Positions 26,082 to 35,234 of a stretch of DNA of 64,000 nucleotides are shown one piece after another. The DNA comes from Mycolicibacterium fortuitum subsp. fortuitum. Its GTDB lineage: Bacteria; Actinomycetota; Actinomycetes; Mycobacteriales; Mycobacteriaceae. A model generated the notes under the pieces. That model saw nothing but the letters and a program-made list of their open reading frames with translations. It searched no databases and was not told the DNA's origin. A program made the position numbers and the translations under genes. How positions within the stretch are numbered: the first letter of the stretch is position 1; each line of letters begins with the position of its first letter. The stretch lies in the NCBI RefSeq assembly GCF_022179545.1, contig NZ_AP025518.1, forward strand, positions 3,906,001-3,970,000, written 5' to 3'.

Positions 26082-27152
26082 TCACAGGTTGATCGGGTCC
26101 GGACGTTGCGGTTTGCGGGACGTATCCGCCAGCTCGGACTTGAATTGCATTGCCCGATACGGCCACCCGGTGTCGGTGCGCCACTGCGAGACCACCAGCC
26201 CGACACCGCCGGTGATGCCGAACCGGGAACCCGGCAGCAGGTAGCCGCCGTAAAGCTGCGCGACCTTGCTGCCGGCGTGATCCTCGGCGTCCCATGACGA
26301 TCCGGTGATCGGCGTCTGAACCGGTGTGGTGTACATGTTGGCCACCGGTGAGGACACCACCCGATAGCCCAATGCGTACGAGGACGCCAGGAATCCGCCC
26401 AACACCCATCGGCCCGGGGCCGTGCGACGGAAGGTCAGCTCGCCCCAGTGCTCGCCGGGCGGGGTGATGGGGGTGGCTTGTGTACCCCACTGCCAACGTC
26501 CGCTGACGAATCCCCAGCTGGAGTAGCGGGAACGTTGGCCGATCTGCTCGGGGCGGACCCGCATCAGGATGATGCCCTTGTCACGCTGAAACCCGGTTGC
26601 CACGACGTACACCCAGCCGTCGTGCGGATCGAAGTCCCACGACCAGCATTGCGCGTGGCCGCCGTGCAGATCCGCTCCGAACTTGGCTTGCTCGCCCATG
26701 TGAGTCCCGGACACCCCGCTGTCGTCGGAGCGCCAGATCTCGGTCCAGATGACTGTGCCGAAGCCGTGGTTGACGATCGCGTGCAGGTACAGCGAGTCAC
26801 CGACGCGCAGCAGATCCGACGGGATCACGGTGCTGATGCCGCCGCGCCGCCACCCGGATGCCTCGGCGTCGTGGAAGTAATCCCAGAGTTGCCGCGCGTA
26901 GGCCGGATCCGGTCCGCCGGCGTATTCGTACACGATCTCGTGGTCGGCGTCGCCGGTGCCGATCAGGACGACCGGTGAACGCCAGTCGCCCTGTCCGACC
27001 CGGTTGCCGGAGAACGTGTCGCCGAAGACAGATACCAGCTTGCCGTTGGGGGCGATTACCGACGCACCGAGATCGGTGGCCGTGACCCCGAACCGGTCGG
27101 TGCGGCCAGGCCCGGTGATGTCGACGACCTTGCCGTCGATCAGGGGTAGCAC
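26082..27152 (-). CDS. DUF4185 protein (GH183-like endo-D-arabinanase family), no signal peptide
   Basis: This 356-residue protein is recognised as DUF4185 by the blocks FGVTATDLGASVIAPNGKLV then VFGDTFSG, GGISTVIPSDLLR and SWDFDPHDGWVYVVATGF. The predicted five-bladed beta-propeller family was shown to contain endo-D-arabinanases acting on mycobacterial arabinogalactan and lipoarabinomannan (GH183). The TDLG and FGDTF aspartates are the likely catalytic residues. The GTG start at 27152 has GAAGGA about ten bases upstream. No secretion signal is visible, unlike the second DUF4185 gene here. It follows the secreted-protein gene by 19 bases, so they form an operon. Confidence 0.78.
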   Translation of the reverse strand: MLPLIDGKVVDITGPGRTDRFGVTATDLGASVIAPNGKLVSVFGDTFSGNRVGQGDWRSPVVLIGTGDADHEIVYEYAGGPDPAYARQLWDYFHDAEASGWRRGGISTVIPSDLLRVGDSLYLHAIVNHGFGTVIWTEIWRSDDSGVSGTHMGEQAKFGADLHGGHAQCWSWDFDPHDGWVYVVATGFQRDKGIILMRVRPEQIGQRSRYSSWGFVSGRWQWGTQATPITPPGEHWGELTFRRTAPGRWVLGGFLASSYALGYRVVSSPVANMYTTPVQTPITGSSWDAEDHAGSKVAQLYGGYLLPGSRFGITGGVGLVVSQWRTDTGWPYRAMQFKSELADTSRKPQRPDPINL

Positions 27153-27834: not shown

Positions 27835-29376
27835 GTGACCAGACGACCAGCGGTGAAAACGTTGGCAACAGTCCTGGTATTCGTGCTGGCCGCCTGCTCG
27901 GCGGCGTGTTCCACCGGTAGCCGGGTCGACCTCGGCGACGGATCCTCGGGCAACCTCATCGCGGCCATCGCCGGGGAACCCGACCAGCTCGACCCGCACC
28001 GCACCAGCGCCTACTTCTCGTTCGAGGTGTTGGAGAACGTGTTCGACACATTGGTCGAACCGGACGAGAACCTGCAGATGCGCCCCGCGCTGGCCCAGTC
28101 ATGGGAGGTCAGCGACGATCAGCTCAGCTGGACCTTCCACCTGCGCCCCGGAGTGCGATGGCATGACGGCACGCCGCTGGTCGCCGACGACGTGGTGTAT
28201 TCGTACCGGCGCATCATCGACGAACAGCTCACCAACGTCGACAAGTTCAGCGCCGTCAGCACCGTCACCGCGCCCGACCCTGCCACCGTGCGGATCACGG
28301 TCCGCCAGCCCACCCCGAACCTGCTGACCAACCTCGGCGGGTTCAAGGGCATGGCGATCGTGCAGCGGGCCAACGTCGAGAGTGGTCAGATCGCCACACA
28401 TCCCGTCGGCACCGGCCCGTTCTCGTTCGCCGGGCGCCGCAGCGGCGACTCCATCACCCTCAAGTCCAATCCCGGGTATTGGGGAGGCGCTCCCCCGATC
28501 TCCGGCGTGACGTTCCGGTTCATCTCCGAGCCGACGACGGCGTTGTCCGCGCTGCAGGCCGGGGAGATCGACTGGACGGATTCCGTGCCGCCACAGCGGG
28601 TGGCCCAGCTGCGCGACGACGATTCCCTCAGGCTCGCGGTCACTCCGGGCAACGACTACTGGTACCTGGCACTGAACGAGGCCCGGCCGCCGTGGGACGA
28701 CCCCACGGTGCGGCAGGCGATCGCATACGGCATCGACCGCGATGCGATCGCGGCGGCCACCAGTTACCGCACCGCGGCAGTCAACCAACTGGCGATCCCA
28801 CAGGGCAGCCCATGGTTCACCGACTATCACCGCTACCGCTACGACATCCAGGAAGCCAAGGCGCTCCTGGACCAGGCCGCTGCCGCGCCGCAGAACCTGG
28901 ACATGCTGGTCACCAGTGAGTATCCCGAGACAGTGACGGCGGCCCAGATCATCGCCGACAACCTTGCACCCCTTGGCATCACGGTGAACATCCGCACCGT
29001 GGACTTCGCGACCTGGCTGGACGAACAGAACACCGGCCACTTCGACATGCTGATGATGGGTTGGCTGGGCAACATCGACCCAGACGACTTCTACTACGCC
29101 CAGCACCACACCAACGGGACCAGCAATGCCCAGAAGTTCTCCGACCCGCAGGTGGACCGGTTGTTGGACGCCGGCCGCACCGAAACCGATGTCGGCAAGC
29201 GAAAAGACCTCTACGCCAAGGCGGCAACGCGGATCGCGGACGAGGTCAGCTACATCTACCTGTACAACCCGTCGGTGATCCAGGCGTGGGCCAACAACCT
29301 GACGGGATATCAGGTGCGCCGCGACGGCGCTGTCCGGTTCCGCAGCGCCGACCTCGACGGAGGTGAAAACCCATGA
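27835..29376 (+). CDS. Oligopeptide/opine-type ABC transporter substrate-binding lipoprotein
   Basis: The 513-residue SBP of the DppA/OppA family starts at GTG 27835 behind GGAG. The signal ends in a lipobox (LAACSAAC, lipidation at the first or second Cys), so it is anchored to the outer face of the membrane. Family hallmarks are GEPDQLDPHRTSAYFSFEVL near 45, RPALAQSWEVSDDQLSWTFH near 80, LRPGVRWHDGTPLVADDVVY near 100, and PVGTGPFSF near 185. It starts a six-gene co-directional unit with every junction overlapping or nearly so. The cargo could be peptides, nickel complexes or glycopeptide fragments. Confidence 0.87.
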   Translation: MTRRPAVKTLATVLVFVLAACSAACSTGSRVDLGDGSSGNLIAAIAGEPDQLDPHRTSAYFSFEVLENVFDTLVEPDENLQMRPALAQSWEVSDDQLSWTFHLRPGVRWHDGTPLVADDVVYSYRRIIDEQLTNVDKFSAVSTVTAPDPATVRITVRQPTPNLLTNLGGFKGMAIVQRANVESGQIATHPVGTGPFSFAGRRSGDSITLKSNPGYWGGAPPISGVTFRFISEPTTALSALQAGEIDWTDSVPPQRVAQLRDDDSLRLAVTPGNDYWYLALNEARPPWDDPTVRQAIAYGIDRDAIAAATSYRTAAVNQLAIPQGSPWFTDYHRYRYDIQEAKALLDQAAAAPQNLDMLVTSEYPETVTAAQIIADNLAPLGITVNIRTVDFATWLDEQNTGHFDMLMMGWLGNIDPDDFYYAQHHTNGTSNAQKFSDPQVDRLLDAGRTETDVGKRKDLYAKAATRIADEVSYIYLYNPSVIQAWANNLTGYQVRRDGAVRFRSADLDGGENP

Positions 29377-30350
29377 GCTTGAGCACGATCCGTGCGAATC
29401 ACCCGATCGTGGAGTTCCTGGCCCGGCGGCTGCTCTATTCGGCGGTGGTGCTGATCGGGGTGCTGGTGGTGGTTTTCGCCCTCGTGCACCTGGTGCCCGG
29501 TGATCCGGTCCGCATCGCGCTGGGCACCCGCTACACCCCGCAGGCCTACGACGCACTGCGCACTGCCAGCGGGATGGACCGGCCCGTCGTCGAACAGTTC
29601 TTCTCCTATCTGGGCTCGGCACTGACCGGCGATCTCGGCGTCAGCTTCCGCAACGGAGACCCGGTTACGGTGACGCTGCTCGACCGACTGCCCGCCACCT
29701 TGTCGCTCGGTGTCGTCGGGATCCTCATCGCCCTCGTGATCGCGCTGCCCGCCGGAATCTTCGCCGCGCTCCGGGAGGGACGGGTCAGCGATGCGATCGT
29801 GCGGGTCGCCAGTCAATTCGGGGTGTCCGTACCGGATTTCTGGCTGGGAATCCTGCTGATCGGACTGTTCGCCTCCACGCTGGGATGGTTGCCGACGTCG
29901 GGATACCGCCCGCTGTTGAGTGATCCGGGCGGCTGGTTGCGCCACATCATCCTGCCCGGTCTGACCGTCGGTCTGGTGGCCGGCGCGATCATGACCCGCT
30001 ATGTGCGCTCGGCGGTGCTGGAGGTCGCCGCGATGGGCTATGTGCGGACCGCACGGTCGAAGGGCCTGGCCCCACCGGTGGTCACCTTCCGCCACATCGT
30101 GCGCAACGCGCTGCTTCCGGTGCTGACCATCACCGGTATCCAGTTGGCCACCATCCTCGGTGGAGTCATCGTGGTCGAGGTCGTGTTCGCCTGGCCGGGT
30201 TTGGGTCGCCTGGTCTTCAATTCCGTTGCCGCGCGCGACTATCCGGTGATCCAGGGCGCGGTGTTGTTGATCGCGGTGTTGTTCCTGCTGATCAACCTGC
30301 TGGTGGACGTGCTGTATGCCATCGTCGATCCGAGGATCCGGCTGTCATGA
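29373..30350 (+). CDS. ABC transporter permease, DppB type
   Basis: The 325-residue inner-membrane protein has six predicted helices, the N-terminal FLARRLLYSAVVLIGVLVVV and VHLVPGDPVRI signature of DppB/OppB proteins, and the EAA loop SAVLEVAAMGYVRTARSKGL near residue 215-235 that contacts the ATPase. It overlaps the SBP gene by 4 bp (ATGA) and the next permease by 4 bp. It forms the channel together with the DppC-type partner. Confidence 0.88.
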   Translation: MSLSTIRANHPIVEFLARRLLYSAVVLIGVLVVVFALVHLVPGDPVRIALGTRYTPQAYDALRTASGMDRPVVEQFFSYLGSALTGDLGVSFRNGDPVTVTLLDRLPATLSLGVVGILIALVIALPAGIFAALREGRVSDAIVRVASQFGVSVPDFWLGILLIGLFASTLGWLPTSGYRPLLSDPGGWLRHIILPGLTVGLVAGAIMTRYVRSAVLEVAAMGYVRTARSKGLAPPVVTFRHIVRNALLPVLTITGIQLATILGGVIVVEVVFAWPGLGRLVFNSVAARDYPVIQGAVLLIAVLFLLINLLVDVLYAIVDPRIRLS

Positions 30351-31228
30351 CCACCACCGACAATTCCCGGGTCGCATCGTGGCGGTTGTTGCTGTCCAAT
30401 CCGGTCACGGCGGTCAGTGCCACGGTGTTGTTGCTCGTGCTCATCGTCGCGGTGGCCGCGACCTGGATCGCCCCGTACGGCATCAACGACATCAACGTGC
30501 CCAGCGCACTGCAGGGCCCCGGCACCGCGCACTGGTTCGGTACCGACGAGCTGGGCCGCGACGTGTTCTCCCGCGTGCTCGTGGCGATCGCGGCCTCGCT
30601 GCGGGTGGCGGTGGTGTCCGTCGCGCTCGCCGCGGCGATCGGCGTGCTCGTCGGTGTGCTCGCCGGTTATCGGGGCGGCTGGATCGACACCGTGGTGATG
30701 CGCGTCGTCGACGTGATGTTCGCGTTCCCAGTGCTGCTGCTCGCGCTCGCGATCGTGGCGGTCCTCGGGCCCGGCATCACCACCACGATGCTGGCCATCG
30801 GCATCGTCTACATCCCGATCTTCGCGCGTGTGGCTCGCGCGTCCGCGCTGGGCGTACGGGTGGAGCCGTTTGTGGCGGTGTCGCGGAGCATGGGCACCGG
30901 CGACGGCTACATCCTGGTCCGGCATATCCTGCCCAACATCGCCGGCCCGTTGATCGTTCAGCTGTCCCTGTCGCTGGCCTTCGCGATCCTGGCCGAGGCC
31001 GCGCTGTCGTTTCTGGGACTCGGCATCCAGCCCCCACAGCCGTCACTCGGCCGGATGATCTTCGACGCCCAGGGTTTCGTCACGCTGGCGTGGTGGATGG
31101 CCGTGTTCCCGGGGGCGGCGATCTTCGTGATGGTGTTGGCGTTCAACCTGTTCGGCGACGGGCTGCGTGACGTGCTCGACCCCAAGCAACGGACGTCGAT
31201 CGAGGCGCGAAGGGCGGGCCGGCGATGA
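30347..31228 (+). CDS. ABC transporter permease, DppC type
   Basis: The 293-residue permease has the DppC/OppC N-terminal helix (VTAVSATVLLLVLIVAVAAT). The conserved HWFGTDELGRDVFSRVLVAI block near 65-85 and the EAA loop SRSMGTGDGYILVRHILPNI near 185-205 follow. AEAALSFLGLGIQPPQPSLG is the usual C-terminal motif. It overlaps both neighbours by 4 bp. It pairs with the DppB-type permease. Confidence 0.88.
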   Translation: MTTTDNSRVASWRLLLSNPVTAVSATVLLLVLIVAVAATWIAPYGINDINVPSALQGPGTAHWFGTDELGRDVFSRVLVAIAASLRVAVVSVALAAAIGVLVGVLAGYRGGWIDTVVMRVVDVMFAFPVLLLALAIVAVLGPGITTTMLAIGIVYIPIFARVARASALGVRVEPFVAVSRSMGTGDGYILVRHILPNIAGPLIVQLSLSLAFAILAEAALSFLGLGIQPPQPSLGRMIFDAQGFVTLAWWMAVFPGAAIFVMVLAFNLFGDGLRDVLDPKQRTSIEARRAGRR

Positions 31229-32790
31229 CCTCACCGGTGTTGAAGGTCGACGATCTGCAGGTCACGATCGGCCGGCACGAGATCGTCAGGGGGGTGTCGT
31301 TCGAGGTGCACCGTGAACAGACGGTCGGCATCGTCGGCGAGTCCGGATCGGGCAAGTCGATGACCGTGCTCGCGGCGACCGGTCTGCTCGATGCCCCCGG
31401 TGCTGCGGTCACCGGCACCAGCACGCTGGCCGGCGGCACCCAACTGGTCGGTGCCTCGGCCCGGGCGCTGCGGGCGGTGCACGGCAGCCGGATCGGATTC
31501 GTCTTCCAGGATCCGGGGACGTCGCTGAACCCGTTGCTGACACTGGAACGTCAGATCACCGAAACCCTTGAAACCCACCGCAAGATGACCAGACGGCAAG
31601 CCCGCGGGCGCGCTGGCGAGCTGCTCGAGGCGGTCGGGTTGTCCCCCGAACGGCTCGACGCATATCCACACCAATTGTCCGGCGGGCAGCGCCAGCGCGT
31701 GATGATCGCGATCGCCCTGGCGTGCGGCCCCGAATTGCTCATCGCCGACGAACCGACCACCGCCCTCGACGTCACCACCCAGGCCCAGATCATCGAGCTG
31801 GTCGACGAGCTGCAACGCGAGTTCGGCACCGCGGTGGTGTGGATCAGCCACGATCTCGGGGTCATCGGCCAGGTGGCTGGCGACGTCACGGTGCTGCGCG
31901 ACGGCCAGGTCGTCGAGCAGGCGCCGATCCTGCAGGTGTTCGACCACCCGCAACATGCCTACACCCGTGAGTTGCTGGCGGCGCGCCCGCTGCTCGACGG
32001 CGCCGGGCCGGATCCTGCCCCGGTCGACACGCCAGTTCTCCTGGAGGTCAAGGGGCTTGACGTGCGGTACGGCGCGGTGCATGCGGTCAACGACGTCTCT
32101 TTTCAGCTCCGCCGCGCGACGACGCTGGGGATCGTGGGCGAATCGGGCTCGGGCAAGTCGACGGTGGCGGCCGCGCTGACCGGGCTGGCCGAGGCGTCTG
32201 CGGGTACCGCGACGCTGGACGGCGACGACGTGTTCGCCGGTGGGCGCGATCTGCGCCGGCGCATCAGCCTGGTGTTCCAGGACCCCTTCGCCTCACTGGA
32301 TCCGCGAGCGCGGGTCAGCGCCGCGATCGGCGAGCCGTTGCGGGTGCACCGCCTGGCCGCCGGACGACGGGCCCGCGCCGACCGGGTAGCCGAGTTGCTC
32401 GAACTCGTCGGTCTGCCGGCCGATTTCGCGTCGCGCTATCCGCATGAGCTGTCCGGCGGGCAACGACAGCGGGTCAGTATCGCGCGCGCCCTGGCCACCG
32501 AACCCGACGTACTCATCCTCGACGAGTCGACGGCATCGCTGGATGTGTCGGTGCAGTCACGGGTGCTCGACCTGTTGTCCGAACTGCAGCGCGAACTCGG
32601 GTTGACCTACCTGTTCATCGCGCACGATCTGGCAGTGGTCCACCGGATGTGTCACGACGTGCTGGTGATGCGGGCCGGCGAGGTGGTCGAGTACGGTCCG
32701 GCCGCCGGGTTGTTCAGCGCACCGCAGCACTCCTACACCCGCACGCTGCTGGCCGCGGTCCCGCCGGACCGGCCGCGTGAGAAGGTGTGA
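31225..32790 (+). CDS. Fused double ATP-binding protein (DppD-DppF type)
   Basis: The 521-residue cytoplasmic ATPase contains two complete nucleotide-binding domains in one chain. Domain 1 has Walker A GESGSGKSM near 37, LSGGQRQR near 151 and LLIADEPTTALD near 173. Domain 2 has GESGSGKST near 308, LSGGQRQR near 411 and LILDESTASLD near 432. The fusion is common in actinobacterial peptide transporters and supplies both ATPases for the two permeases. In the second Walker B (ILDES) the usual catalytic DE pair is kept. The following SDR gene begins 3 bases after the stop. Confidence 0.9.
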   Translation: MTSPVLKVDDLQVTIGRHEIVRGVSFEVHREQTVGIVGESGSGKSMTVLAATGLLDAPGAAVTGTSTLAGGTQLVGASARALRAVHGSRIGFVFQDPGTSLNPLLTLERQITETLETHRKMTRRQARGRAGELLEAVGLSPERLDAYPHQLSGGQRQRVMIAIALACGPELLIADEPTTALDVTTQAQIIELVDELQREFGTAVVWISHDLGVIGQVAGDVTVLRDGQVVEQAPILQVFDHPQHAYTRELLAARPLLDGAGPDPAPVDTPVLLEVKGLDVRYGAVHAVNDVSFQLRRATTLGIVGESGSGKSTVAAALTGLAEASAGTATLDGDDVFAGGRDLRRRISLVFQDPFASLDPRARVSAAIGEPLRVHRLAAGRRARADRVAELLELVGLPADFASRYPHELSGGQRQRVSIARALATEPDVLILDESTASLDVSVQSRVLDLLSELQRELGLTYLFIAHDLAVVHRMCHDVLVMRAGEVVEYGPAAGLFSAPQHSYTRTLLAAVPPDRPREKV

Positions 32791-32793
32791 CCC

Positions 32794-33534
32794 ATGACAG
32801 CTCTGGATGGAAAGGTCGCACTCGTCACCGGTGCCTCATCGGGTCTCGGCGCGGCGGTTGCCCGATTGTTCGCCGCACGCGGCGCGAAGGTGTTCGGGGT
32901 GGCCCGCGACGCCGACCGGATGGCGACGGTGTTCGAGGATGTGCCCGGTGGCGCCTATGCCTCTGTGGACATCTCCGACTCGCAGGCGTGCCGGGACGCG
33001 GTGGCCCAATGTGTCGAGAAATTCGGTCGACTCGATGCGCTGATCAACGTCGCGGGTTTCCACCAGATGCGCCACACCGTATCGATGACCGATGAGGACT
33101 GGGACAAGGATCTCGCCGTCAACCTCAACGGCCCCTTCTTTCTGTGCCGGGCGGCGCTGCCGCATCTGCTGGAGGCCGGCGGCAACATCGTCAATGTCGC
33201 GTCGATCGCCGGCATCGAGGGTGAGGTGTACTCGGCGGGATACTGCGCGGCCAAGCATGGGCTGGTCGGCCTCACCCGCGCGCTGGCCATCGAGTTCACC
33301 TCGGAGCGGCTTCGCGTCAACGCGGTGTGCCCGGGCGGCATGCTCACTCCGCAGACGACCGAGTTCGCCGCACCGGAAGACGCCGACTGGAATCTGATCA
33401 TGAGGATCGCCGCGCCCCGCGGGATGATGGACGTGGCCGACGTCGCCAAGACCATCGCGTTCCTGGCGAGCGACGACGCCGCTGCCGTGCACGGCGCGGT
33501 CTACATCGTCGACGCGGGCAAGACGGCCGGATGA
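32794..33534 (+). CDS. Short-chain dehydrogenase/reductase in the ABC-transporter operon
   Basis: This 246-residue classical SDR has TGASSGLGAAV at 12-22, NVAGFHQ in place of the usual NNAG near 80, and NVASIAG with the catalytic Ser near 135. YCAAKHG supplies Tyr and Lys near 150. The AR after the nucleotide strand suggests NADP, the aspartate DIS near 60 is standard. Its presence inside a transporter operon suggests it acts on the imported compound. It overlaps the Cys-repeat gene by 4 bp (ATGA), implying coupled translation. Confidence 0.83.
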   Translation: MTALDGKVALVTGASSGLGAAVARLFAARGAKVFGVARDADRMATVFEDVPGGAYASVDISDSQACRDAVAQCVEKFGRLDALINVAGFHQMRHTVSMTDEDWDKDLAVNLNGPFFLCRAALPHLLEAGGNIVNVASIAGIEGEVYSAGYCAAKHGLVGLTRALAIEFTSERLRVNAVCPGGMLTPQTTEFAAPEDADWNLIMRIAAPRGMMDVADVAKTIAFLASDDAAAVHGAVYIVDAGKTAG

Positions 33535-33911
33535 GCACCGGCCTGCGCTCCGCGGCAACGCATCACAGCGCGGCGGTGGCCGGGTCGGCGGCCACCGCGG
33601 TCAGCGCGGCGGTGGCCGGATCAGCGGCCACCGTCACCAGCGCCGGCGTCGTGGGATCGGCTGCGACCGCCTCCAGCGCCGGGGTTGCCGGCTCTGCGGC
33701 AACAGCCGGCAGCGCCGCCGTGTTCGGAAGTGCGCTCACCGTGCTGTCTTTCGCGATGCTGGGTTGTCTGGCCTGTATCGGATGCTTCGCGTGCCGTCGG
33801 TGTGTGGGCTGCCTCGGCTGTGCCGGCTGCCGCGACTGTGTCGGTTGCGTGGGCTGCTACAACTGCTCGGGCCTGCGCAACGCACGCGGCCTGCGCAACG
33901 TCCACGTCTGA
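33531..33911 (+). CDS. 12-residue-repeat protein with C-terminal (Cys-x-x)n domain, unknown family
   Basis: The ATG at 33531 overlaps the SDR stop. The 126 residues divide exactly into a 6-residue start (MSTGLR) plus ten 12-residue units. Units 1-5 follow SAATxxSAxVxG, unit 6 is hydrophobic (SALTVLSFAMLG), and units 7-9 are CLACIGCFACRR, CVGCLGCAGCRD and CVGCVGCYNCSG. Unit 10 is LRNARGLRNVHV. All 12 cysteines lie exactly three residues apart. Codon third positions are mostly G or C, as in real genes here. The design suggests a short solenoid or a metal- or redox-binding rod, or a modified-peptide precursor. I do not recognise it. Confidence 0.7.
   Translation: MSTGLRSAATHHSAAVAGSAATAVSAAVAGSAATVTSAGVVGSAATASSAGVAGSAATAGSAAVFGSALTVLSFAMLGCLACIGCFACRRCVGCLGCAGCRDCVGCVGCYNCSGLRNARGLRNVHV
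33549..33872 (+). repeat. Nine degenerate 36-bp tandem repeats inside the Cys-repeat gene
   Basis: The 36-base period encodes the 12-residue units 1-9. The first five (33549-33728) are similar at DNA level around the core gcggccaccgcggtcagcgc. Units 7-9 keep only the period, with tgt/tgc at every third codon. The repeats stay in one frame with no stop or indel, which argues for selection at protein level rather than a mere DNA repeat. Confidence 0.65.
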
Positions 33912-33926
33912 GTCTCCCCGGCGACG

Positions 33927-35234
33927 CTAAGCTCCGGCACCCAGTGACGTACGCATCAGCATGACGCTGTAGTCGGACCAGCGTGACAACGTGAAGTAGA
34001 GATCGCTGCCGCTCGACCACGGATGGATGTAGGGCGCATAGATGCCGCCGGGGATCGCGGTCGAGCCGACGATCGTCTTGGCCTGGCTCCACGGCCCTTC
34101 GGGTTTGTCCGCTGTGCGCATCACCACCGCCGAGGTCGTGTTCGTGTAGAGCATGACGAACTTCTTCAGGTAGTCGTTCCAGGCCACCGACATCTCGCTG
34201 CCCGGCGCCCACACCACCTGGATGGCGAGGAACGGAAAGCCCTTGAGCCAGCCGAACGGCGTGTAGTACTCATAGGCCGACTTGTCTGCCACCGCGCTCT
34301 CGACCACCCGGGACAGGAAGGGCATACCGCCACGGCCCGCGCCGGTACCGTACGCATAGACGTAGCCGCCCGAGCGGACATAGGCGCCCATCTGGAAGTT
34401 CTGGTCGCCCCAGGTGAACGCGACTCCCGGCACGGTGTTGAACCAGCTGGGCCGGATGCTGGTGACGGGCACTGTCCAGGTCTCACCGTTGTCTGCCGAT
34501 ACCGCGACGGCCGAGAAGTTGGTCGACCACTGCCCGGCCGAGCCCCATTGGCTGACCGACATGAAGTTGACGTATTGCGTTGTGCCGACTGATATTCCGG
34601 CTGTGGGGATGATCGTGACCTCGGTGGCGGCCAAGCCCAGGCTCTGAATCACCTGCCGGGAGAAGTTGGGCCGCGAAGGAGCTACCGGCGAACCGGCGTA
34701 GATGTTGCCGGGCATCGGGTCGGGCACCGTCATGCCGTCGGCGAGGTTGCGGTCGGAGCTGCGGAACAGGGTGTTCTTGCGCCATTCCTGGTCGGGGACA
34801 GCGCAATTGCCGAAGGTGTCACCGAACGCGATGAGCACCTGGTTGTTCGGACCGGTCTGCCCGTTGTCCCAGACGATCCCCAGGTCGGCCCCGGAGATTC
34901 CGAAGCGCGCGTAGCTGTCGGTGTTGGGCCCGGTGATCCAGCCGACCTGGGTGGCCGCCGACGCGGTGGGCGCGGCGGCAGCACGGGCCGTCGTGTCGGG
35001 TGCGACGGCGGTGTCCTTGGCTGCCTCGGCAGAGCTGGCGGTGCTGACCGGTTTGCGACCGATCGGCAGATGCAGGACCGGCAGCCGCGGCACGGACGGG
35101 GTGGCCGAACGCGCCGCGGCGCCTGTCGGGACCGAACAGGGGTCGGCGACCGCCGGGGGCGCGGCCACCGGTGCGACCACCGAGACGAGGGCCGAGGCGG
35201 ACAGCAAGGTCACCAGTCGACGAAGAGCCGGCAT
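33927..35234 (-). CDS. Secreted DUF4185 protein (GH183-like endo-D-arabinanase family)
   Basis: The 435-residue protein starts at ATG 35234 behind GAAAGGTG. A Sec signal peptide (LVTLLSASALVSVVAPVAAP, cleavage near AVADP) is followed by an Ala/Ser/Thr-rich low-complexity stretch to about 95. The DUF4185 propeller then follows: FGISGADLGIVWD with IAFGDTFG, NFSAVAVSADNGETWTVPV, and GGIYAPYIHPW. The paired aspartates ADLG and FGDTF match those of the first DUF4185 gene. This family includes enzymes that cut mycobacterial D-arabinan. An exported copy beside an importer operon suggests cell-wall fragment turnover, which is inference. Confidence 0.78.
   Translation of the reverse strand: MPALRRLVTLLSASALVSVVAPVAAPPAVADPCSVPTGAAARSATPSVPRLPVLHLPIGRKPVSTASSAEAAKDTAVAPDTTARAAAAPTASAATQVGWITGPNTDSYARFGISGADLGIVWDNGQTGPNNQVLIAFGDTFGNCAVPDQEWRKNTLFRSSDRNLADGMTVPDPMPGNIYAGSPVAPSRPNFSRQVIQSLGLAATEVTIIPTAGISVGTTQYVNFMSVSQWGSAGQWSTNFSAVAVSADNGETWTVPVTSIRPSWFNTVPGVAFTWGDQNFQMGAYVRSGGYVYAYGTGAGRGGMPFLSRVVESAVADKSAYEYYTPFGWLKGFPFLAIQVVWAPGSEMSVAWNDYLKKFVMLYTNTTSAVVMRTADKPEGPWSQAKTIVGSTAIPGGIYAPYIHPWSSGSDLYFTLSRWSDYSVMLMRTSLGAGA

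Follow-up and report, generated by a model that had tools for sequence, protein, structure and literature searches.

The 64,000-nucleotide stretch of Mycolicibacterium fortuitum subsp. fortuitum DNA that we analysed, referred to below as the window, encodes a strange, conserved and unnamed protein of 126 residues that is built from three-residue repeats and is the product of what we call the triplet-repeat gene. The operon setting suggested for it is a local one, and phages have unnamed counterparts of its (Cxx)n part. The protein is strongly selected, is maintained in about half of the genomes sampled from the genus, and has no family in Pfam or NCBIfam. As an explanation of the whole we tentatively favour, at a probability of about 0.3, a cytosolic two-part solenoid with 12 residues per coil and a thiolate Cys core for soft metals.

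A two-part protein with a strict 12-residue periodicity

Translation of the open reading frame (ORF) at 33531-33911 gives MSTGLR followed by exactly ten 12-residue units, just as a preliminary description of this DNA had claimed; units 1-5 match SAATxxSAxVxG, and units 7-9 carry Cys at positions 1, 4, 7 and 10. The parts of the gene are as follows.

33531..33911, + strand: whole gene, 126-residue triplet-repeat protein (ORF reading and translation)
33549..33728, + strand: N domain, five 12-residue units SAATxxSAxVxG (residues 7-66) with the register Ser/Thr/Ser/Val
33729..33764, + strand: transition unit 6, SALTVLSFAMLG (residues 67-78), at the start of the most hydrophobic 19-residue window
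33765..33872, + strand: Cys domain, twelve C-x-x triplets (residues 79-114)
33873..33908, + strand: conserved C-terminal tail or cap, LRNARGLRNVHV, which is unit 10 (residues 115-126)

The twelve Cys residues stand at positions 79, 82, 85, 88, 91, 94, 97, 100, 103, 106, 109 and 112. Across residues 7-78 the self-identity at a lag of 12 residues is 0.70, whereas 2,000 shuffles average 0.20 (z 10.6), which places the 12-residue periodicity far beyond chance. The first residues of successive triplets alternate between corner positions, mostly Ser in the N domain, and strand-centre positions, and for the centre residues the identical fraction is 0.86 at a lag of 12 and 0.01 at a lag of 18; a lag of 5 gives a self-identity of 0.11. 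When repeats 36 nucleotides apart are compared, codon positions 1, 2 and 3 agree in 78, 72 and 45%, respectively. The drift at codon position 3 indicates that the periodicity is old and has been maintained at the protein level, and a recent origin by DNA slippage is therefore rejected. The genome of the window has only one copy of the gene.

The register is kept across relatives and the gene is under selection

Searches of genome collections confirmed 220 loci, of which the best 80 were kept and examined. These span Mycolicibacterium, Mycobacterium, Mycolicibacillus, Williamsia, Pseudonocardia and actinobacterial metagenome-assembled genomes (MAGs), and they include at least one duplicate (L025/L026). 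One environmental species with a copy is M. vanbaalenii (L070). A gap-free alignment anchored on the last Cys and extending from 108 residues before it to 14 after it could hold 77 of the 80 loci, the rest being too short, and a MAFFT alignment of nearly the same set has 138 columns for 126 residues, i.e. a few gaps were opened. In this register the first triplet residues run through repeats of Ser, Thr, Ser, Val, which give way to twelve Cys and finally to Leu, Ala, Leu, Val, and the third triplet residue in the aligned relatives is mainly Ala or Gly. In the 80 loci, Ser fills 756/795 of the N-domain corner cells, Thr, Val or Ile fill 776/797 of the centre cells, and Cys fills 950/960 of the register cells of the Cys domain (centres 478/480, corners 472/480). 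Of the ten cells that are not Cys, eight are at corners (seven Ser, one Gly) and two at centres (both Val). In transition unit 6 the corners are only ever Ser or Cys, and the centres are T, V, L, M, I, C, A or S. Among 26 outgroup rows, which include P0016 and P0049, 15 have Thr and one has Val at position 82, and two have Ser at position 79 (by eye). Substitutions at Cys positions are few and stem from sequences that are related to one another. The distribution of Cys, Ser, Thr and Val at corners and centres indicates that the Cys block prolongs the register of the N domain, with the same two classes of site.

The N domain is nearly uncharged, with Lys, Arg, Asp, Glu and His together making up 114/4,792 residues (2.4%) in the 80 loci, and in most of its units the inward residue has Ala on both sides. 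Its repeat number differs among relatives, most of which have roughly 5-9 predicted coils. The tail, G-L-R-N-A-x-G-L-R-[DN]-V-H, is highly conserved, and the same five residue types make up 31.7% of it.

That this is a conserved protein under selection, as first suggested from the window alone, is borne out by homologues that are open through the match in 80/80 loci and by a dN/dS well below 1. Specifically, five near relatives have dN 0.06-0.11, dS 0.42-0.83 and dN/dS 0.10-0.19, with dN at 0.03-0.05 in the Cys half and at a higher 0.08-0.17 in the N half, which shows that the gene is under purifying selection. The family is present in 47/98 genomes of the genus, the genome of the window included; one of these 47 carriers (G061) is a weak match (E 3.9e-4).

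The predicted fold is a narrow beta-solenoid

The best-supported fold is a narrow right-handed beta-solenoid with 12 residues, or four triplets, per coil, which on balance we regard as probable. The preliminary description had raised a solenoid on account of the three-residue register; the register stands, and the fold is a prediction. The best structural match is 1EZG, the Tenebrio molitor antifreeze protein (TmAFP). The first AlphaFold2 (AF2) model has strands at the transition stretch, and its predicted local distance difference test score (pLDDT) is <50 in residues 119-126. Three points weigh against a solenoid: the second structure model is poor, AF2 has a known bias (PMC11795689), and Foldseek alone gave no PDB match at E <= 0.001. 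VIA-align compared only the 82 chains from Foldseek, so that the absence of other folds from its results is uninformative.

Neither 1EZG nor the beetle TCTxSxNCxxAx proteins match the family by sequence in the PDB, against whose sequences the family profile gave 0 matches up to E 1. TmAFP has a Thr-x-Thr ice face, whereas the outside of the window protein is Ala, Gly and Val; no T-x-T rank recurring every 12 residues was seen in the window protein or in the column counts of its relatives, where Thr occupies register positions and its neighbours are mainly Ala, Val or Gly. Also unlike 1EZG, the window protein has an N-domain core without Cys and a C-domain core with four Cys per coil. It is also a bacterial protein, in which inspection by eye, without a predictor, showed no signal peptide. 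The six strand-centre Cys would match the sites of the Tenebrio cross-coil Cys pairs, whereas the six corner Cys would lie at Tenebrio Ser/Ala sites. The likely fold of the family has a counterpart in a eukaryotic protein, in shape only. If the fold is correct, this would be the beetle-antifreeze coil in a bacterium, with Cys confined to one end and doubled per coil.

Several known repeat families differ from this protein. Collagen-like proteins have Gly at every third position, whereas here Ala and Gly alternate and Arg, Asp or Asn occur at some positions of the Cys block; weak Pfam Collagen matches were seen in 3/17 family members scanned (best E 1e-4), and NCBIfam collagen-like adhesin models matched up to 2 of these 17, with weak matches of other low-complexity types in a few members as well. 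Pentapeptide-repeat proteins, such as the mycobacterial MfpA, have a unit of 5 rather than of 12 (6+6), and there was no Pfam pentapeptide match in the window protein or the 17 members. Left-handed beta-helix (LbH) proteins have an 18-residue coil of three hexapeptides, whereas lag 12 prevails over lag 18 here, and no Pfam hexapeptide match was found in the 17 members.

A thiolate core as the favoured explanation

We propose that the first residue of every triplet would point inward. In the N part, Ser/Thr/Ser/Val would be stacked in the core, and little other than Ala, Gly, Val and Ile would face outward. Given this outside and the 2.4% of charged or His residues, the flat, apolar rod should pack on itself or on an apolar surface, and it most likely anchors the protein in this way. 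Over the three coils of the C part this core would turn all-Cys, and the 12 Cys would together make a buried site of thiolates for the uptake of soft metal ions, Cu(I) being the first choice, in the reducing cytosol. The conserved polar tail may cap the tube or dock a partner. A thiolate core for soft metals is favoured because the corner Cys are about as conserved as the centre Cys, although disulfides would not need them. The metal-thiolate rod that the preliminary description had raised may accordingly be right. We infer the cytosolic location, the apolar packing, the thiolate chemistry, the metal and the role of the tail, and our searches found no experiment or expression record bearing on metal binding, disulfides, membrane association or assembly.

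A possible functional precedent, by analogy only, is Csp3, in which, according to the accessible parts of PMC5171941 and PMC5519932, many Cys line the protein core. Csp3 differs from the window protein in being a tetramer of four-helix bundles, and no Pfam relation between the two was found; nor was there any metallothionein or Csp family among the Pfam and NCBIfam results for the window protein and the scanned members. A search with PF03860 for an anti-correlation with Csp3 gave no match, control genomes included, and is hence uninformative. If the thiols do bind metal, the protein would be a new metal-storage scaffold beside the helical Csp proteins and the small metallothioneins. Quite doubtful, in our view, is the fuller picture of an all-thiol core in three coils of an intracellular bacterial beta-solenoid, where a tube that would store or pass soft metal ions or electrons is tethered by an inside-out apolar rod and has its Cys-plus-tail part in common with viral proteins.

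Alternative readings of the two domains

The same coil could instead be zipped by disulfides, with cross-coil pairs 82-88, 94-100 and 106-112 that would make the Cys domain a structural staple or a redox switch. The near-invariance of the centre Cys (478/480) fits this, but the corner Cys, for which such disulfides have no need, are nearly as conserved (472/480). The cytosol is a reducing compartment and no signal peptide was seen by eye (no predictor was run), which also count against disulfides. We therefore hold this alternative to be unlikely, even though 1EZG is the best structural match and, in the available parts of PMC8038014, the disulfides of this coil link inward residues six apart.

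A membrane or lipid-surface protein, in which residues 61-86 would form a membrane helix or the apolar N domain would lie in or on lipid, leaving the Cys domain and tail cytosolic, likewise seems improbable to us. The Kyte-Doolittle 19-residue maximum of the window protein is 2.21 at residues 68-86, hydropathy reaches >= 1.6 around residues 61-86 in 77/80 relatives, with such a window free of Lys, Arg, Asp and Glu in 67/80, and some remote relatives (P0010 and P0059) begin with RRRR plus a hydrophobic stretch. However, the strict triplet register continues through the hydrophobic stretch, strands are modelled there by the first AF2 run, and the clade in which the gene precedes a short-chain dehydrogenase/reductase (SDR) gene often has two or three Arg or Lys within it (e.g. 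SVRLRKC).

The protein might also have no defined fold, being of low complexity and partly disordered, in which case the solenoid would be an AF2 artefact and the register would have another cause. The poor second model and the AF2 bias noted above (PMC11795689) would agree with this. We nevertheless consider it quite unlikely, as the register and its near-invariant residues are maintained across genera, dN/dS is 0.10-0.19, and corners and centres hold different classes of residue.

Quite improbable, too, is a self-assembling fibre or coat in which, as in silk or amyloid, the Ala/Gly/Ser/Val repeats would stack into sheets that the Cys domain cross-links. Such repeats are expected to be far less strict in register, no secretion signal was seen by eye, and this genome has just one copy; these points outweigh for us the nearly uncharged N domain (114/4,792), the Ala on both sides of the inward residue in most units and the variable repeat number, all of which would suit a fibre.

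Phage and viral counterparts

The earlier statement that no family resembles this protein holds for Pfam and NCBIfam but not for phages, where a (Cxx)n family, phrog_15341, exists. This family of unassigned function matches 17/17 members scanned (best E 1.7e-7), and in the window protein the match is the Cys block, residues 79-113, against positions 54-88 only of a 276-position profile. It comprises (Cxx)n proteins of Campylobacter phages, namely CP21_165 and CP21_166 with relatives in CP220, CPt10 and vB_CcoM-IBB_35; in a search of phage records 17/50,697 match at E 1e-5, all from Campylobacter. What it shares with the mycobacterial family is a long block in which every third residue is Cys. 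However, the phrog_15341 proteins examined have a LIDGYY-DSNNNKW head and as many as dozens of Cys separated by charged residues, and they lack both the Ser/Ala N domain and the GLRNAVGLRDVH tail, just as the LIDGYYxDSNNNKW head is absent from the window protein and the relatives examined. The match may reflect repetitive Cys composition, so that homology remains putative. If our fold is correct, the mycobacterial protein would be a solvable model for these phage proteins. Other PHROGs, including tail-fibre and collagen-like families, were matched by single or few members.

Harder to dismiss than a match in Cys composition is the tail likeness of a short viral ORF (L132, 682-825), in which Cys triplets precede NLINAKGLRNVH, almost the same tail as in the mycobacterial family, and which aligns with the family over 29 columns at 55% identity (hhalign 97.2%). 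It is the only clear case of Cys triplets plus tail in three viral_contigs scans. Among predicted viral structures, a TNFR-Cys domain protein of Mimiviridae sp. ChoanoV1 ranks first, with E 1.8e-5 but a TM of 0.40 and an rmsd of 11.1; second is a Campylobacter virus IBB35 protein (E 1.6e-3, TM 0.28), possibly the (Cxx)n protein. On one strand of a viral contig from IMG/VR (L131), ~7 kb takes in seven (Cxx)n stretches, of which some have dozens of Cys. The triplet-repeat gene had no match in the plasmid and phage collections searched, and no PADLOC family was found in the 17 members. Literature searches found no paper on the family, and a term search in the accessible text of PMC2853527 and PMC4546147 found no mention of Cys or CXX.

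Remote relatives and irregular loci

When 396 genomes from the phylum were searched with a Cys-plus-tail profile, 8 matches emerged: six belong to the genus, and the other two (L148 and L149) to a distant family. The L148 relative (~1009-1683) lies between a gene for an E2-type lipoyl protein and lipB/lipA (E2 and lipB by eye), and two database proteins (P0041 and P0053) also read into a lipB-type domain. At the class level 22/394 genomes had matches; the ten matches outside the genus (L113-L122) were dropped because their translations look like simple low-complexity sequence without a Cys block plus tail, L119 being a plain (CVG)n stretch. From a large protein database we obtained first 15 and then 60 matches, which overlap in part; many are from metagenomes, and some are likely due to chance, as P0062 looks to be. 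In three metagenome proteins (P0031, P0032 and P0036; source name adenylate cyclase) the repeat-plus-Cys domain stands behind a CYTH domain, which is above the Pfam cut-off in the first two and just below it in P0036; these fusions look genuine. Fusions in P0007, P0012, P0016 and P0049 were not accepted, their contigs being just 0.8-1.2 kb. The Cys block appears frame-shifted, by eye from the translation, in P0011, P0038, P0041 and P0053. The duplicate loci L025 and L026 come from a single assembly of an uncultured Mycobacterium, on two contigs whose 16,357 bases around the gene are wholly identical, perhaps as an assembly duplicate. Two contigs titled Bifidobacterium breve MAG (L059 and L086) have neighbourhoods of mycobacterial type, so that these titles look wrong or the bins mixed.

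Genomic neighbourhood

The genes around the triplet-repeat gene in the window are the following.

27835..32790, + strand: peptide-import-type ATP-binding cassette (ABC) genes
27835-29376, + strand: binding protein (by eye)
29373-30350, + strand: permease (by eye)
30347-31228, + strand: permease (Pfam)
31225-32790, + strand: ATPase (Pfam)
32794..33534, + strand: SDR oxidoreductase, its stop overlapping the start of the triplet-repeat gene; a neighbour by lineage, not an obligate partner
33927..35234, - strand: convergent downstream DUF4185 gene (PF13810, E 6.4e-108)

The coupling to an SDR in a peptide-import operon that had been described is real in the window, where the start codon overlaps the SDR stop (ATGA, 33531-33534), but the setting is specific to a lineage. 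An SDR ortholog is present in 72/98 genomes of the genus (E <= 1e-80) and is adjacent to the triplet-repeat gene in 20, i.e. in 20/47 carriers. Both genes occur in 35 of the 98 genomes, the family alone in 12, the SDR alone in 37 and neither in 14 (Fisher p = 1.0), so the two co-occur at random and the SDR as an obligate partner is rejected. The SDR/import operon is thus not the context of the family and gives little hint of function.

Sorted by our own crude clusters of ORFs, the contexts of the 80 loci are an Sdh1 operon (16), SDR then gene (14), gene then SDR (13), other (12), a carotenoid region (8), mixed (7), Nudix-like (5, by eye), WhiB (4) and acyl-CoA dehydrogenase (1). The same SDR (78-98% identity) adjoins 27/80 loci, on either side. 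Example neighbours confirmed by Pfam are the Fe-S and flavoprotein subunits of succinate dehydrogenase, WhiB, a metallo-beta-lactamase-fold protein, acyl-CoA dehydrogenase and phytoene synthase. Changes of context mainly follow clade, in a gene tree without printed support values. With contexts that mainly follow clade and no second copy in this genome, and thus none behind sdhB, mobile insertion was rejected, the ends of any insertion not having been tested.

These neighbourhoods also speak against a precursor of a ribosomally synthesised and post-translationally modified peptide (RiPP), whose C-terminal Cys block would be excised and cross-linked with the N part as leader. A conserved Cys block plus tail behind a repetitive N part would suit such a precursor, HxsA systems have three-residue repeats, and 1/17 members matches HxsA4, weakly (E 0.076). 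We regard this reading, which the preliminary description had offered, as very improbable: the most widely shared neighbour cluster is found in just 29/80 loci (>45% identity, within 8 kb), the neighbours that can be named are transporters, SDR, succinate dehydrogenase, WhiB, acyl-CoA dehydrogenase and others, a radical SAM gene lies beside one remote relative only, as lipA, and no modifying enzyme was recognised by eye in the 25 most widely shared clusters, lineage-specific or distant enzymes not having been searched.

Finally, in regards to the downstream gene, a second ORF that by eye resembles the DUF4185 protein of 33927-35234 lies at 26082-27152 (- strand), on the other side of the import operon.
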